From Nocardioides sp. HDW12B (GTDB lineage: Bacteria > Actinomycetota > Actinomycetes > Propionibacteriales > Nocardioidaceae), in assembly GCF_011299595.1 (NCBI RefSeq), contig NZ_CP049867.1, positions 992,001 to 1,056,000 of the forward strand: a stretch of 64,000 nucleotides of DNA. Reading direction: 5' to 3'. The notes beneath the pieces were generated by a model. That model ran no database searches. It was not told the origin of the DNA and saw only the letters and a list, made by a program, of their open reading frames with translations. Made by a program: the position numbers and the translations under genes. Positions 5,788 to 45,334 of this stretch are shown here, in pieces. Position 1 is the stretch's first letter. Each line of letters begins with the position of its first letter.

Positions 5788-7470
<1,683 letters not shown>

Positions 7471-7476
7471 GCTGCT

Positions 7477-7546
7477 GGTTTCACTAGGTACCTAGTGGTT
7501 CCGGCGCTTCCCGAGCGATACTTCGCTCGGGAAGCGCCGGTTTCGT
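7477..7546 (+). repeat. 70-bp two-hairpin repeat, copy 1 (after ettA)
   Basis: The unit starts with GGTTTCACTAGGTACCTAGTG, a small palindrome centred on GGTACC. It continues with a 17-18-bp stem built on CGGCGCTTCCCGAGCG and its complement around a 4-base loop, ending GGTTTCGT. It matches 66 of 70 positions of the reverse complement of 8682-8751. Each copy begins shortly after the stop of the gene that reads into it, so each could terminate transcription. Their identity and inverted placement also suggest a dispersed repeat or element ends. Confidence 0.85.
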
Positions 7547-7664
7547 CAGGGGAGCAGCGGTCACGACGGGCCGGACTTCGTCCCCAACCCCGGGAGACCT
7601 CCCGCTGCCCACAGCCCAGCACGACGTACGCCGTACGCCGTGCGCGGGGCCTGAGGGTGGGCAC

Positions 7665-8612
7665 ATGCGACTCGACCTCACCGACACCTCGTCCTCCGAG
7701 CCCACGATCCTCCTGCGCCGCGAGGCGCTCGCCGCGGGCGTCGACGACCGCGCCCTGCGTCGAGCCGTGCGGGCCGGGGAGCTCGTGAGGGTGCGTCACG
7801 GTGCCTACATCGCCGCCGACGACTGGGGACGTGCGGACGGGCGCGAGCGCCACCTCATCACCGCGCGCGCCCTGCACCGCACTCACGGCGATCGCGTCGC
7901 GTTCAGCCACCACACGGCAGCGTGCCTGCACGGGTTGGACCTGTGGGACGTCGACCTCCGCAGGCTGCACGTCACCCGAGCGGACGACAAGCACGGGCGT
8001 CGAGCGAACGACGTGGTGCACCACCAGGGGCTCGTCGAGCCCAACGAGCTGACCTGGGTCCGCGGACTGCCGGTCGTCCCCGTCTCCCGCGCCGCGCTGG
8101 AGTCGGCATCGCTGGTGTCCCTCGAGCAGGGCCTCGTCACGCTCGACTCGGCCCTGCGGAACGACCTGTGCGACAAGGAGGCGCTGGCGCACCGGTACGC
8201 CGCGGTCGGAGGGTGGCCGCACAGCCTCGGGCTGCAGCTCGCGGTCACCCTGGCGGACGGGCGTCACGAATCGGCGGGGGAGACCCGCACCGGTCACCTG
8301 CTGTGGCGCTCCGGACTGCCTGCGCCGGTGCCGCAGCTCGAGATCCTGCTGGACGGCAGGGTCATCGCGCGCGTCGACTTCGCCTGGCCTGAGCACGGTG
8401 TGGTCCTCGAGTTCGACGGTCGCAAGAAGTACCTGAAGTACCTCCGCCCCGGGGAGAGCGTGACCGATGCGGTGCTGCGCGAGAAGAAGCGGGAGGACCT
8501 GATCCGCGAGGTGACCGGGTGGATCGTCATCCGCGTCGTCTGGGCCGACCTCGCGGACCCCCGCCGGCTCGTCGCCCGGATCGAGCGGGCGATGCGGCGC
8601 GCCGCGGCCTGA
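7665..8612 (+). CDS. AbiEi-like antitoxin-domain protein with C-terminal nuclease-fold (DUF559-like) domain
   Basis: The protein has 315 residues. The N-terminal ~55 residues resemble the winged helix of AbiEi-family proteins (LLRREALAAGVDDRALRRAV, then VRVRHGAYIA). The C-terminal third (~200-300) has spacing typical of PD-(D/E)XK-like folds: Glu202 or Glu206, Asp238 (RVDFAW), then Glu249, Asp251 and Lys254/255 in LEFDGRKK. No AbiEii-type nucleotidyltransferase toxin is adjacent, so it is an orphan and may not act as an antitoxin. Solo genes of this kind are common in Nocardioides-like genomes. It is the only gene between the two inverted 70-bp repeats. Function is unknown; DNA binding or cleavage is plausible. 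Confidence 0.75.
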   Translation: MRLDLTDTSSSEPTILLRREALAAGVDDRALRRAVRAGELVRVRHGAYIAADDWGRADGRERHLITARALHRTHGDRVAFSHHTAACLHGLDLWDVDLRRLHVTRADDKHGRRANDVVHHQGLVEPNELTWVRGLPVVPVSRAALESASLVSLEQGLVTLDSALRNDLCDKEALAHRYAAVGGWPHSLGLQLAVTLADGRHESAGETRTGHLLWRSGLPAPVPQLEILLDGRVIARVDFAWPEHGVVLEFDGRKKYLKYLRPGESVTDAVLREKKREDLIREVTGWIVIRVVWADLADPRRLVARIERAMRRAAA

Positions 8613-8681
8613 GGGACCTCGGGGGTCGGTTCGGGAGAGAACGGGTCGGTGCGAGGGCGCCGTACGACGGATGCTTCCCGC

Positions 8682-8751
8682 ACGAAACCGGCGCTTCCCG
8701 AGCGAAGTTTCGCTCGGGAAGCGCCGGTTTCACTAGGTACCTAGTGAAACC
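8682..8751 (-). repeat. 70-bp two-hairpin repeat, copy 2 (after thiolase, inverted)
   Basis: Read on the minus strand, it begins 9 bases after the thiolase stop. Its GTTTC-GAAAC block is a perfect 24-bp palindrome centred on GGTACC, followed by a stem of up to 22 bp with a minimal loop. Copy 1 differs at four positions, three of which break the GTTTC/GAAAC symmetry, so copy 2 looks the more intact. Together the copies enclose 1.27 kb. Confidence 0.85.
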
Positions 8752-8760
8752 GACAGGGCC

Positions 8761-9978
8761 TCAGCTGAGGCGCTCGAGGACTAGCGCCATGCCTTGGCCG
8801 CCACCGACGCACATGGTGATGAGGCCGGTCTGCTTGTCGTGGTGCTGCAGGGAGTTGATCATCGTCGACTGCAGGCGGGCGCCGGTCATGCCGAAGGGGT
8901 GTCCCACGGCGATGGCGCCGCCGTTGACGTTGAGCCGGTCGAGGTCGATGCCGAGGTCCTGGTAGGACGGCACGACCTGGGCCGCGAACGCCTCGTTGAT
9001 CTCGACGAGGTCGATGTCGCCGACCGACATCCCGGCGCGCTCCAGCGCCTGCTTCGACGCCTCGACCGGGCCGAGCCCCATGATCTCGGGCGACAGCCCG
9101 GTCAGGCCGGTCGACACGATGCGCGCCAGCGGGGTGAGCCCCAGCTCGGCGGCCTTGGTGTCGCTCATGACGACGACCGCGGCGGCGCCGTCGTTGAGCG
9201 CGCAGCAGTTGCCGGCGGTCACGACACCGTCGGGGCGGAAGACCGGCTGCAGCTGCGAGACCGCGTCGTACGTGACGCCCGCGCGCGGACCGTCGTCGGT
9301 GGAGGCGACCGAGCCGTCGGGCAGCGTCACCGGGGTGATGTCCTTGGCCCAGAAGCCGTCGTTGATCGCCTTCTCGGCCAGGTTCTGCGACCGGACGCCG
9401 AACTCGTCGAGCTCCTGGCGCGAGAGGCCCTTCATGCGGGCGACGTTCTCCGCGGTCTGCCCCATCGCGATGTAGGCGTCGGGCAGCAGCCCGTCCTCGC
9501 GCGGGTCGTGCCAGTCCTGGCCGCCCTCGGCGTACGTCTTCGTGCGCGCCTCGGCGTCGGCGAACAGCGGGTTGTGCGTGTCGGGCCAGTGGTCCGAGGT
9601 GCCCTTCGCGAAGCGGGACACGGTCTCGACACCGGCGCTGATGAAGACGTCGCCCTCGCCGGCCTTGATGGCGTGGAAGGCCATCCGCGTGGTCTGCACC
9701 GACGACGAGCAGTAGCGCGTGATCGTGGCACCGGGCACGTTGTCCATCCCGAGCAGCACCGCGACGATGCGGCCCAGGTTGTTGCCGGACTCGCCGCCGG
9801 GCAGGCCGCAGCCGAGCAGCAGGTCGTCGATGTCGTCGGTCGACAGCGCGGGCACCTTGTCCAGCGCGGCCCGGACCATCTGGGCGGTCAGGTCGTCGGG
9901 GCGCATGTCCTTCAGCGACCCCTTGTTGGCCCGTCCGATGGGGGAGCGGGCGGTGGCGACGATGACGGCCTCGGGCAT
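8761..9978 (-). CDS. Acetyl-CoA C-acyltransferase (thiolase)
   Basis: This 405-residue thiolase has nucleophile Cys90 (TRYCSSS), His360 in VGHPFGMTGARL, and general-base Cys390 in CVGGGQGMALVLERL at the C-terminus. It should catalyse thiolytic cleavage of 3-ketoacyl-CoA in fatty-acid degradation, or the reverse condensation. A GGAGAA ribosome site precedes the ATG. It is transcribed divergently from a thioesterase gene, which suggests a loose acyl-CoA theme, but no other beta-oxidation gene is adjacent. Its position between ettA and the thioesterase is accessory compared with the conserved actinobacterial order. Confidence 0.92.
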   Translation of the reverse strand: MPEAVIVATARSPIGRANKGSLKDMRPDDLTAQMVRAALDKVPALSTDDIDDLLLGCGLPGGESGNNLGRIVAVLLGMDNVPGATITRYCSSSVQTTRMAFHAIKAGEGDVFISAGVETVSRFAKGTSDHWPDTHNPLFADAEARTKTYAEGGQDWHDPREDGLLPDAYIAMGQTAENVARMKGLSRQELDEFGVRSQNLAEKAINDGFWAKDITPVTLPDGSVASTDDGPRAGVTYDAVSQLQPVFRPDGVVTAGNCCALNDGAAAVVVMSDTKAAELGLTPLARIVSTGLTGLSPEIMGLGPVEASKQALERAGMSVGDIDLVEINEAFAAQVVPSYQDLGIDLDRLNVNGGAIAVGHPFGMTGARLQSTMINSLQHHDKQTGLITMCVGGGQGMALVLERLS

Positions 9979-12210: not shown

Positions 12211-12255
12211 GGGCCCAAGTCTGTCAGGCGTCGTCGTACGAGCCGCCTCGGTGCG

Positions 12256-12320
12256 CCACACGTGACGCTTCGCTGCGACACACGTGACGCTTCGGCGCGA
12301 CACACGTGACGCTTCGGTGG
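12256..12320. repeat. Three tandem 22-bp repeats (family ACACGTGACGCTTCG)
   Basis: The core CGTGACGCTTCG recurs at 12261, 12283 and 12305, an exact 22-bp period, with ACA before it and C/G-rich variable bases after it. The array lies between the divergent globin and OsmC genes. It is the same family as the arrays at 16264-16323 and 26308-26494. Confidence 0.85.
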
Positions 12321-16263: not shown

Positions 16264-16323
16264 GCGCGAAACGTCGCGCGTACACCCGCGACGTTTCGCG
16301 CGTACACGAGCGACGCTTCGCCG
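16264..16323. repeat. 22-bp repeat set with perfect hairpin, downstream of pepN
   Basis: Two direct units begin GTACAC at 16280 and 16302 (period 22), with cores CGACGTTTCG and CGACGCTTCG. A half unit in opposite orientation precedes them, giving a perfect 13-bp inverted repeat (GCGAAACGTCGCG at 16266-16278 and its complement at 16287-16299) with an 8-base loop. It may terminate pepN transcription. Same family as 12256-12320 and 26308-26494. Confidence 0.8.
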
Positions 16324-16334
16324 CAGGAGGGGGG

Positions 16335-18884
16335 TCAGTTGACGGCGGCGTCGAACGCCTGGGCGGCGAGCGCCCGGCGTACGTCGTCGGCGCCCTCGCG
16401 CACGAAGCGGACCGCTCCCGGGTTGGCCGGGTTGTCGGCCAGCCAGGCGTCGACCCGGTCCAGCACGGCCTGGGTGGCGTGGGTGCGGGGGAACATCCAC
16501 TGCAGCACCACGCGGGAGCGCTGGACGCCCTTGGACTCCCAGATCGTCTCGGCGGCCTCGAGGTAGCGGTCGACGTACGGCGCCAGCAGCGCGTCGTCGC
16601 CGGACTCCTGGAAGTGCACCGCGATCTGGCGCTGGGTCTCGTTGGGCGTGTTGTCGCGCTCCACCGCGGTCTGCCAGGCGGCCTCCTTGGCCTCCGGCGT
16701 GGGGATGAGCGCCCGTGCCGAGGCGGCCCGCTCGCGGCCCGAGATGGTGCCGTCGCGCTCCTGCTCGGCGGCGATCTCCTCCTCGCCGGCCCGGCCCCGG
16801 CGGACGGCGGCGTAGAGCAGCAGCCAGCGCAGGTCGGGGTCGAGCGAGAGGCCCTCGAGGGACTGCGACCCGTCGTACCAGCCGACGAGCAGGTCGAGGG
16901 TCTCGTCCGCGTGGGCGGCGGCCGTCAGGGCCCGCACCAGGGCCAGCTGGTGGTCGCTGCCCGGCTCGGCGGCGAGCGCCAGCTCGCGCACGCCGGCGTC
17001 CCACCGGGCCCGGAGCGCCTCGCGGTGCTCGGGTGCGGAGTAGACGTCCACGGCGGTCTGGGCGTAGCGCAGCAGGGCGCTGACCGCGGTCAGGTCGCTC
17101 TCGGTGGCCACGCCCTGGAGCACCAGGGAGGCGAAGGCAGTGGCCGACAGCTCCGCGTCGCGGGTCATGTCCCAGGCGGCGCCCCAGCACAGGGCTCGTG
17201 CCAGCGAGTCGTCGAGGGTGTCGATCGAGGCGACCAGGGTCGCGAGCGAGCGGTCGTCGAGGCGGATCTTGGCGTAGGACAGGTCGCCGTCGTTGAGCAG
17301 CAGCAGCGCCGGCTGGGACCGGCCGACCAGCTCCGGGATCTCCGTGGAGGCGCCGTCGACGTCGGTCTCGACGTGGTGGGTGCGCACCAGCCGGCCGCCG
17401 TCGACCTCGTAGAGGCCGATGCCGATGCGGTGCGGGCGCAGGGTCGCGAAGTCGGGGTGGTGGCTCTGCTCGACCGCGAACGACGTGAAGGTGCCGGCCT
17501 CGTCGACGTCGAAGGACGGACGCAGCGTGTTGACGCCCGACGTCTGCAGCCACGCCTTGCTCCAGGCGGCCAGGTCACGTCCGGAGACGGCCTCGAGGGC
17601 CGTCACCAGGTCGCCGTACTCGGTGTTGCCGAAGGCGTGCTTGGCGAAGTAGTCCCGCAGCCCGCTGAGGAACTCCTCCTCGCCGACGTAGGCCACCAGC
17701 TGCTTGAGGATCGAGGCGCCCTTGGCGTAGGTGATGCCGTCGAAGTTGACCTCCACCGCCTCGAGGTCGACGTTGTCGGCGACCACCGGGTGGGTGGAGG
17801 GCAGCTGGTCCTGGCGGTAGGCCCAGTTCTTGCGGGCGTTGGTGAAGCCGGTCCAGGCCTCGGTGTACTTCGTGGCCTTCACCGAGGAGTGGTGCGCGGC
17901 CCACTCGGCGAACGACTCGTTGAGCCAGAGGTCGTCCCACCACTTCATGGTCACCAGGTCGCCGAACCACATGTGGGCCATCTCGTGGAGCACGGTGTTC
18001 GCGCGCTGCTCGTAGAAGGCGTGGGTCTGGCGGGACCGGGGGAGGTACTCGTCGCGCAGCGTGACGCAGCCGGCGTTCTCCATCGCGCCCATGTTGTACT
18101 CCGGCACGTAGGCCTGGTCGTACTTCCCGAACGGGTAGGGGTAGCCGAAGGCGTCCTCGAAGAACGCGAAGCCCTGCTTCGTGACCTCGACGAGCTCCTC
18201 GACGTCGAGGTGGGCCACGACCGACTGGCGGCAGAAGTGGCCCAGCGGGATGGTGCCGTGCGGGCCGTCATAGGAGTGGTGGACCGCGTGGTACTCCCCG
18301 GCCACGATCGCGGTGATGTACGTCGACATGCGCTCGGTCGTGCCGAACGACCAGCGGGCGCGGCCCTCGTCGAGGGTCTCCGGCTCGGGGGTGGCGGCGT
18401 TTGAGATGACCGTCCAGCCCTCGGGGGCGGTGACGGTGAAGGTGAAGACCGACTTCAGGTCGGGCTGCTCGAAGGTGGTGTAGACGCGGCGGGCGTCCGG
18501 CACCTCGAACTGGGTGTAGGTGTAGACCCGGTCGTCGACGGGGTCGACGAAGCGGTGCAGGCCCTCACCGGTGTGGGAGTAGGGCAGCAGGGCCTCGACG
18601 ACCAGCTCGTTGTCGTCCGCCAGCCCGGTCAGCGCGATGCGGTGGTCGGCGTACACCTCGAGCGGGTCGAGGTCGCGACCGTTGAGGCTGATGCGGCGCA
18701 CGTCGCCGTCGACGAGGTCGGCGAAGGTCTCCGCGCCCGGCTCCCGGCAGGTGAACCGCAGGGTGGTGGTGCTGGCGAAGACCTTGTCGGAGACGGTCAG
18801 GTCGAGGTCGACGACGTAGGACGTGGCGTCGAGCAGACGGGCGCGCTCAGCGGCCTCGTCGCGGGTCAGGTTGGTTCCGGGCAT
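16335..18884 (-). CDS. pepN: Aminopeptidase N (M1 zinc metallopeptidase)
   Basis: This 849-residue cytosolic peptidase has the exopeptidase motif GAMEN (266-270) and the zinc site HEMAH (His300, Glu301, His304) with third ligand Glu323 in NESF. The length is typical for actinobacterial PepN. It removes N-terminal residues from peptides and probably acts downstream of ClpXP. Orientation opposite to rpiB, and proximity to it, matches Rv2467 in mycobacteria. The stop is followed by a 22-bp repeat hairpin. Confidence 0.96.
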   Translation of the reverse strand: MPGTNLTRDEAAERARLLDATSYVVDLDLTVSDKVFASTTTLRFTCREPGAETFADLVDGDVRRISLNGRDLDPLEVYADHRIALTGLADDNELVVEALLPYSHTGEGLHRFVDPVDDRVYTYTQFEVPDARRVYTTFEQPDLKSVFTFTVTAPEGWTVISNAATPEPETLDEGRARWSFGTTERMSTYITAIVAGEYHAVHHSYDGPHGTIPLGHFCRQSVVAHLDVEELVEVTKQGFAFFEDAFGYPYPFGKYDQAYVPEYNMGAMENAGCVTLRDEYLPRSRQTHAFYEQRANTVLHEMAHMWFGDLVTMKWWDDLWLNESFAEWAAHHSSVKATKYTEAWTGFTNARKNWAYRQDQLPSTHPVVADNVDLEAVEVNFDGITYAKGASILKQLVAYVGEEEFLSGLRDYFAKHAFGNTEYGDLVTALEAVSGRDLAAWSKAWLQTSGVNTLRPSFDVDEAGTFTSFAVEQSHHPDFATLRPHRIGIGLYEVDGGRLVRTHHVETDVDGASTEIPELVGRSQPALLLLNDGDLSYAKIRLDDRSLATLVASIDTLDDSLARALCWGAAWDMTRDAELSATAFASLVLQGVATESDLTAVSALLRYAQTAVDVYSAPEHREALRARWDAGVRELALAAEPGSDHQLALVRALTAAAHADETLDLLVGWYDGSQSLEGLSLDPDLRWLLLYAAVRRGRAGEEEIAAEQERDGTISGRERAASARALIPTPEAKEAAWQTAVERDNTPNETQRQIAVHFQESGDDALLAPYVDRYLEAAETIWESKGVQRSRVVLQWMFPRTHATQAVLDRVDAWLADNPANPGAVRFVREGADDVRRALAAQAFDAAVN

Positions 18885-26307: not shown

Positions 26308-26494
26308 CGAAGCGTCGCGTGTGTACGCGAAGCGTCACGTGTGTACACGCGATGCGTCGGGCGTGTACAAGCGAAACGTCAGGCGTGTACGGCCGAGGCG
26401 TCGCTCGGCGACGCGCCCGCTCCGCGCCGTACATCAGTGACCTTTCGGCTGTACATACGTGACGCTTCGGCTGTACACACGTGACGTTTCGCGC
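26308..26494. repeat. Divergent array of 22-bp repeats (five reverse, three forward)
   Basis: Reverse-oriented units with cores CGAAGCGTC, CGAAGCGTC, CGATGCGTC, CGAAACGTC and CGAGGCGTC start at 26308, 26328, 26350, 26372 and 26394 (periods 20, 22, 22, 22). After a GC-rich spacer (~26404-26428), three forward units start with GTACA at 26429, 26451 and 26473 (period 22), with cores TGACCTTTCG, TGACGCTTCG and TGACGTTTCG. The array fills the gap between the convergent nei and tRNA-Gly genes. Confidence 0.85.
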
Positions 26495-45141: not shown

Positions 45142-45231
45142 CGGTTTCCCACGGGATGTCGGGAAACTGGCACTCCCCATGGCGTCGGCACCGTGGGGAG
45201 TGCCAGTTCGGCTGCATACCGTGGGAAACCG
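45142..45231. repeat. 90-bp imperfect palindrome upstream of mreB
   Basis: Two 43-base arms (45142-45184, 45189-45231) match at 35 positions around a TCGG loop. Arms begin CGGTTTCCCACGG and share AACTGGCACTCCCCA. The layout, GTTTC-GAAAC sub-hairpins next to a GGCACTCCCC stem, echoes the 70-bp repeats at 7477 and 8682. Confidence 0.75.
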
Positions 45232-45334
45232 GCAGCGGGCCGAGCCGCTCGCGCCGCGTGTCCTCCCGGGCGGGAGGCGTCGCGATGCCTACGCTGCTCA
45301 AGACACTGGTGTGACGAAAGTGGCGGACGCAACG

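Follow-up and report, generated by a model that had tools for sequence, protein, structure and literature searches.

A gene for a predicted AbiEi-type nuclease framed by inverted copies of a dispersed palindromic element in Nocardioides sp. HDW12B

The window (the whole 64,000-nt stretch analyzed) corresponds to C1:992001-1056000 of Nocardioides sp. HDW12B (G000 below), whose 4.19 Mb genome is a single contig. Within it, one gene encoding a 315-aa protein lies between a gene which we take to be ettA, following the naming of an earlier sequence-only reading of this DNA, and a thiolase gene; inverted copies of a structured element separate it from both (Table 1). The same ettA neighbor is present in the congeneric genomes G001, G002, and G003.

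Table 1. Features of the ettA-thiolase interval and its flanks (window positions)
Feature	Position	Strand	Basis
ettA, flanking gene marking the insertion site	5788..7470	+	ABC-type ATPase domains (profile match)
P, outer palindrome of left element, core CACTAGGTACCTAGTG	7477..7502	+	60 genome copies vs. 0 for control
H, hairpin of left element	7503..7538	+	fold of 91-nt stretch, z -8.1
A3, third, inner half-arm of left element	7539..7556	+	alignment of long-type ends
Gene for AbiEi winged helix plus predicted Vsr-fold nuclease, 315 aa	7665..8612	+	PF13338 and structure model
Putative nuclease domain, residues 203-315	8271..8609	+	invariant acidic residues and fold model
A3, right element	8672..8689	-	repeat and alignment
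H, right element	8690..8725	-	fold of 91-nt stretch on this strand, z -8.7
P, right element	8726..8751	-	palindrome match
Thiolase gene, other flank	8761..9978	-	domain match; convergent with ettA

Outermost in each element is the palindrome P (GGTTTCACTAGGTACCTAGTGAAACC), followed by the hairpin H and, innermost, by A3, a half-arm resembling the right arm of H. The two inverted copies (7477-7546 on the plus strand, 8682-8751 on the minus strand) share 66 of their 70 bases, and with a repeat search the match lengthens to 91 nt (88% identity). The left copy starts 6 bases past the ettA stop codon (which ends at 7470), while the thiolase stop codon (8761-8763) is 9 bases beyond the right copy. 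The 91-nt stretches fold into a small palindrome and a hairpin of 16-20 pairs, with z-scores from -8.1 to -9.8 over both strands of both copies; in each case none of 200 shuffles was equally stable. With up to 2 mismatches allowed, ACTAGGTACCTAGT has two matches in the window, compared to a mean of 0.00 in 100 shuffles of it. Among 30 aligned long-type ends from the host genome, H is kept in nearly all and A3 is conserved, with conservation ending beyond A3. No gene for an AbiEii nucleotidyltransferase toxin adjoins the AbiEi-type gene, whose neighbors are ettA and the thiolase gene. The sequence-only reading had described two inverted 70-bp copies around one AbiEi-type gene lacking a toxin partner, each copy with a small palindrome and a long stem and each starting just past a flanking stop codon; recounting and refolding bear this out.

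The protein matches PF13338 (AbiEi_4, E 5.8e-10). Among the best fold matches of its structure model are an AbiEi antitoxin and the homing endonuclease I-Bth0305I/Vsr (the absence of a chain from the matches listed excludes nothing), and three acidic residues of the putative nuclease domain (E206, D238, and E249) are invariant among 17 aligned homologues. The model has an AbiEi winged helix followed by a nuclease that resembles Vsr and homing endonucleases. The sequence-only reading had noted a PD-(D/E)XK-like C-terminus. Profile searches found no solved relative, and there was no NCBIfam match. Its closest named homologues are from Nocardioides. Of 197 genomes from the family to which the host belongs, 136 have a match at E ≤1e-40. 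In the host genome, no other gene of this kind reaches comparable similarity to the window gene.

The palindrome is not confined to this locus. In a genome-wide search of the kind proposed by the sequence-only reading, TTCACTAGGTACCTAGTGAA (≤3 mismatches) gave 60 matches in the host genome, and a reversed control pattern gave none. These cluster into about 38 sites, a site being defined as a cluster of palindrome matches, and the sites are of three kinds: P-H-P′, a short symmetric form whose palindromes are spaced 62 bp apart; a single-ended form, P-H-A3; and inverted pairs, of which there are seven, with palindrome spacings of 226 to 1249 bp. Just two of the inverted pairs enclose a gene. One is that of the window; the other (C1:736495-737581; L046 5996-7082) holds a methyltransferase gene (Methyltransf_12, E 1.6e-14), and the orthologous place in G002 bears the short form alone. 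A lone window-type palindrome without a hairpin was also seen at C1:3951886-3951905 (L070 5987-6006), immediately past the repeat belonging to a different AbiEi gene (L147).

By the predictions of our own codon-bias gene finder (used here and for the framing counts of neighboring genes and of the 494-kb sample below), all 40 clusters are outside genes: 23 are between convergent genes, 14 between genes of the same direction, and 3 between divergent genes, and 28 of the 40 are no more than 20 bp from the stop codon of a gene pointing at them. No target duplication was noticed by eye in 40 element stretches, viewed without an alignable empty site. An RNA-family identity was dropped, as its six matches all fell far under the gathering scores. 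A GTACGnCG motif present inside many elements was dropped too, since both strands of a 494-kb sample of the host genome contain it 932 times in all.

The position of the elements directly past stop codons, together with their strong hairpins, could suggest ordinary dispersed terminator repeats that flank a gene by chance, and the sequence-only reading had offered a portable terminator as one of its two explanations. A promoter/terminator consensus scan gave no hits at all, with no terminator-like sites in 7400-8850 and no T-run, so lends this no support, although terminators in this host may need no T-run. The same reading had set against a cassette the prospect of isolated copies after unrelated genes with no link to the gene family; many such isolated copies do exist, but the link to the gene family is strong. 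As described next, nearly all close homologues are framed, with scores above those of all 176 shifted controls, making chance flanking by terminators scarcely credible.

To score framing, 450 bp upstream of each homologue were compared with 450 bp downstream for an inverted match. The 66 loci scored comprise the best 30 places from the 136 matching genomes, the host's own paralogues, and 32 further loci; L081 was left out, since it is another piece of the L080 gene. Of the 42 homologue loci with a protein score of at least 400, 41 lie between inverted repeats, each of the 41 exceeding every one of 176 shifted-position controls (maximum 37), and the repeat score has a median of 83.5 across the 38 best-scoring proteins. 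The sole failure is L103, at 34. Among more distant homologues (protein score <400), 7 of 24 have flanking repeats within 450 bp. At named loci with high scores, AbiEi genes are framed in 11 of 11 cases and their neighboring genes in 0 of 51. In a 494-kb sample of the host genome, made of stretches chosen around element sites, framing is seen for 3 of 210 genes: the window gene, the AbiEi gene at L070/L147, and the methyltransferase gene. In the first repeat score matrix, off-diagonal values reached 378, which was taken to reflect homologous neighboring genes; its p values understate the effect, and the framing claim is drawn from the shifted-position and neighbor-gene controls instead.

The framing repeats are mostly unlike in sequence from one locus to another, while the palindrome-plus-hairpin build is commonly kept, as judged by reading them. 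Similarity of repeats follows similarity of proteins to some extent (Mantel r 0.28, p 0.0005, 2000 permutations, n = 41), mainly through close pairs, and the repeat of the nearest protein ranks 0 or 1 at just 17 of the 41 loci. The tied best hits outside the window's genus, in G098 (E 1.9e-81) and G031 (E 2.0e-81), illustrate both outcomes: the G098 repeat is kin to that of the window and the G031 repeat is not. Since gene and repeats are physically linked, this covariation may reflect shared descent. Farther afield, AbiEi-nuclease genes at L127 and L129 (two Mycobacterium/Mycolicibacterium genomes) are framed by hairpin repeats with a common GCAGACACAAAC core, relatives of which are found near the homologues at L128 and L136. 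In G115, one of two palindromes in total (≤2 mismatches) is at C176:9011-9026; an AbiEi homologue with 41% identity lies 85 bp away.

The host genome has eight PF13338 matches. Flanking inverted repeats are clear at the window gene, L080/L146, L082/L151, L147, and L150, and weaker at L152 (score 44), L084 (39; not itself among the PF13338 matches), and L148 (36, below the control maximum of 37), with flanks of 600 bp compared in part of this set and of 450 bp for controls. At L083/L149 there are no inverted repeats, only a tandem 22-bp array upstream. Within the 494 kb, the L080 repeat recurs at four further sites, the L082 repeat at three, the L084 repeat at one, and the L148 repeat, weakly, at one. 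These repeat families differ from each other and from that of the window.

Traces of such families are also seen in the window itself. A short-form inverted doublet at 45142-45236 belongs to the L080 family, which frames the AbiEi paralogue at C1:3805414; this paralogue (L080/L146, C1:3805393-3806309) is in two overlapping frames and apparently broken, with its repeats still framing it. Iterated 22-bp units (GTGACGCTTCG..ACACAC) occur at 12240-12316, 16266-16342, and 26326-26493, forming inverted arrays in the last, and are possibly another cognate family. The tandem array upstream of the AbiEi-like L083 is similar, with another sequence.

The ettA-thiolase site differs among the four genomes compared. 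G000 has the pair of elements and the gene; G001 has a pair of repeats of different sequence around a 52%-identical gene; in G002, two inverted elements of the G002 type enclose no gene; and G003 has no element, with 59 bp between the two stop codons. The empty site that the sequence-only reading had suggested looking for is present in G003, and occupied and empty alleles, as for a transposon or MITE, are found between species rather than within one. G002, which has 62 palindromes, carries its homologue (66% identity) at another locus, framed by an inverted pair of its own version of the repeat. The identities of the AbiEi protein to that of the window fall in the same order as those of the thiolase (88% in G002, 85% in G001); this, and the locus shared by G000 and G001, suggest partly vertical inheritance.

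Few sites are shared with G002. Comparison of 38 G000 sites with 36 in G002 (36 clusters rather than all; the stretch around 987078 was left out) found five orthologous sites. For 121 of the 126 repeat units of G000 and G002, the nearest unit, excluding the same site, is in the same genome; by sequence comparison, the repeats cluster by genome and not by site. The 42 homologue loci fall into 30 neighborhoods with both flanks in common, one of which (L094, L100, L113, and L117) has four different palindromes. A larger neighborhood group of seven loci was considered as further cases of the ettA site and rejected: in five of them the common flank is another thiolase paralogue (33-36% identical), and of the seven just G000 and G001 have the ettA-thiolase site in common. 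A second candidate empty site (a G002 element near L182:9691, with none in the window) was also rejected, because its flanks are separated by 1.7 kb of unrelated sequence.

Repeats from three foreign cassettes were searched for over one set of 12 genomes, counting matches on both strands (sites, grouped from the listed matches, are fewer). The G017 repeat has 27 matches in G017 (about 23 sites) and none in the 11 others. The G091 repeat has 33 in G091 (about 17 sites), 19 each in G074 and G097, which are of the same genus, and none in the 9 others. The G098 repeat has 33 in G098 (about 15 sites), 2 in G091, 1 in G097, and none in 7, with weaker matches in G000 (58) and G089 (15), hosts of related families. 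Taken together, five genomes belonging to three other genera carry dispersed copies of the foreign repeats, and most of the remaining genomes have none. The window palindrome itself had matches in 11 genomes, although in 7 of these it is a single match, at the level of the reversed control (up to 6). G097 has 7 window-type palindromes, none of them on the two contigs that bear its E ≤1e-40 homologues.

Several known systems share parts of this arrangement. REPtrons (REP/REPIN elements with a RAYT, or TnpA-REP, gene) are closest: there too the gene is bordered by palindromes, and cognate palindromes, single or in inverted doublets, are scattered through intergenic space, as are the extragenic palindromes cognate to the flanked gene described here. 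REPtrons also have gene-specific families where a genome holds several (PMC3116915, PMC3733652, PMC8266576). The enzyme here is unrelated, however, and the element has a palindrome, a hairpin, and a third half-arm. The Y1/HuH transposase family PF01797 has no match in the host genome, while control genomes match in 5 of 14 cases, which sets aside a RAYT acting in trans. Within 9 bases of the palindrome, GTAG is found at 0 of 60 copies and CGTC at 4; across the 80 nt of P-H-A3, GTAG turns up in one of 30 long ends and CGTC in seven. Neither the Y1/HuH gene nor the GTAG/CGTC tag of REPtrons can therefore be assigned to this system. The nearest known kind shares its layout but differs in the defining enzyme and tag.

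Other comparisons are less close. TIRtrons, described in PMC3733652 as tyrosine transposase (TIRYT) genes with long terminal inverted repeats, some of them dispersed, also have such repeats around a lone gene, but their enzyme is of a different class. Type IV AbiE systems share the N-terminal fold and family match, and AbiEi has been described (PMC11062541) as binding palindromes in its own promoter and at oriT; here there is an AbiEi domain without AbiEii alongside, an additional predicted nuclease domain, and palindromes both on the two sides of the gene and dispersed. MITEs, too, are short inverted-repeat forms that are non-autonomous and presumed to derive from a parent, but no classical transposase is known here and target duplication was not recognized. 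The predicted model resembles Vsr-fold nucleases in its fold and invariant acidic residues; I-Bth0305I has one homing site, while the putative nuclease here is fused to AbiEi and its cognate repeats are dispersed. No papers linking AbiEi or DUF559 genes with dispersed palindromes were found in open-licence PMC text, the scope of the search (subscription papers are outside it).

What seems the best explanation, and a reasonably probable one, is a REP/RAYT-like system whose enzyme is the AbiEi-nuclease in place of a HuH transposase, maintaining its cognate palindromes and probably spreading them. Gene and repeats are paired over many genomes, cognate repeats are dispersed in the genomes tested, the repeats are genome-specific, and one site exists in different states. 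The window would then be the "parent" locus of a dispersed palindromic family, its gene bounded by inverted copies of its own P-H-A3. The winged helix may recognize the palindrome or the hairpin, which is plausible because AbiEi antitoxins bind palindromes (PMC11062541). The nuclease, to judge from its modeled fold and invariant acidic residues, could nick or cut at such sites, and elements might be copied into new intergenic sites by cutting and repair. A full cassette, P-H-A3-gene-A3′-H′-P′, would by internal deletion give rise to short-spacer pairs and eventually to P-H-P′, which would be to the cassette what REPINs are to RAYT loci. Each gene lineage would keep its own repeat sequence, protein and repeat changing together.

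The sequence-only reading had proposed a mobile or domesticated cassette whose nuclease could act on the repeats, and this is the explanation favored by the framing at 41 of 42 loci, the empty site, the gene-less pair, and the G002 gene in its own pair elsewhere; movement of the cassette and cutting of its repeats are inferred. Several observations weigh against a mobilizing role: neither a transposition intermediate nor polymorphism within a species was seen, repeats are often undetected at distant homologues, L103 scores below the control maximum, a methyltransferase occupies one pair, inheritance looks partly vertical, the G097 palindromes are off the contigs of its listed homologues, and the nearest proteins do not always have the nearest repeats.

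It is conceivable, though unlikely, that the protein is instead a resident DNA-binding or repair factor using the palindromes as sites (for transcript ends, insulation, nucleoid organization, or hairpin trimming), with selection matching gene to sites and the repeats spreading in some other way. The sites' location outside genes and mostly at gene ends agrees with this, as do the presence of Vsr, a repair enzyme, among the best fold matches and the partly vertical inheritance. So few sites orthologous with G002, however, would be a fast turnover for a conserved regulon; the few clusters between divergent genes give no support to a promoter-type regulon; and paralogues with families of their own would each require a separate role. 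Still less probable is that the repeats are the ends of a transposon-like cassette moved in trans by an unrelated transposase (the search for transposases in the host genome covered PF01797 only), with the AbiEi-nuclease as cargo, perhaps anti-phage. In favor of this are the place of the AbiEi models in a defense library and the inverted pair that encloses a methyltransferase gene, with just a short form at the orthologous G002 site. Cargo would be expected to vary, yet two of the three framed genes in the 494 kb are AbiEi genes, as are those framed at nearly all homologue loci, and repeat sequence covaries with the AbiEi protein. A maintenance element, in which the state of the repeats decides whether the nuclease attacks a chromosome or tolerates it, so that loss of gene or repeats is punished, has in its favor the type IV toxin-antitoxin membership of AbiEi and the invariant acidic residues of the nuclease domain. 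It seems very improbable given that there is no toxin partner alongside, and that G002 has an allele with repeats and no gene at ettA-thiolase, though it keeps the gene elsewhere.

A wider generalization, for which the chances seem about even, is that Actinobacteria have a class of mobile palindromic repeats without RAYT/HuH enzymes, for which an AbiEi-winged-helix/Vsr-fold nuclease is the dedicated mobilizer. Repeat and nuclease would repeatedly switch specificity together, several non-interfering families could coexist in one genome, and many orphan "AbiEi antitoxins" would be family parents. A widespread AbiEi-nuclease family gains a testable role and substrate, and genes annotated as defense or toxin-antitoxin components on the strength of AbiEi matches may be neither. 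Should the nuclease be what moves the repeats, dozens of protein-repeat pairs would be ready for specificity studies, and the enzyme, which is nearer to homing and repair nucleases, would represent a second, convergent solution to the presumed task of the RAYTs.
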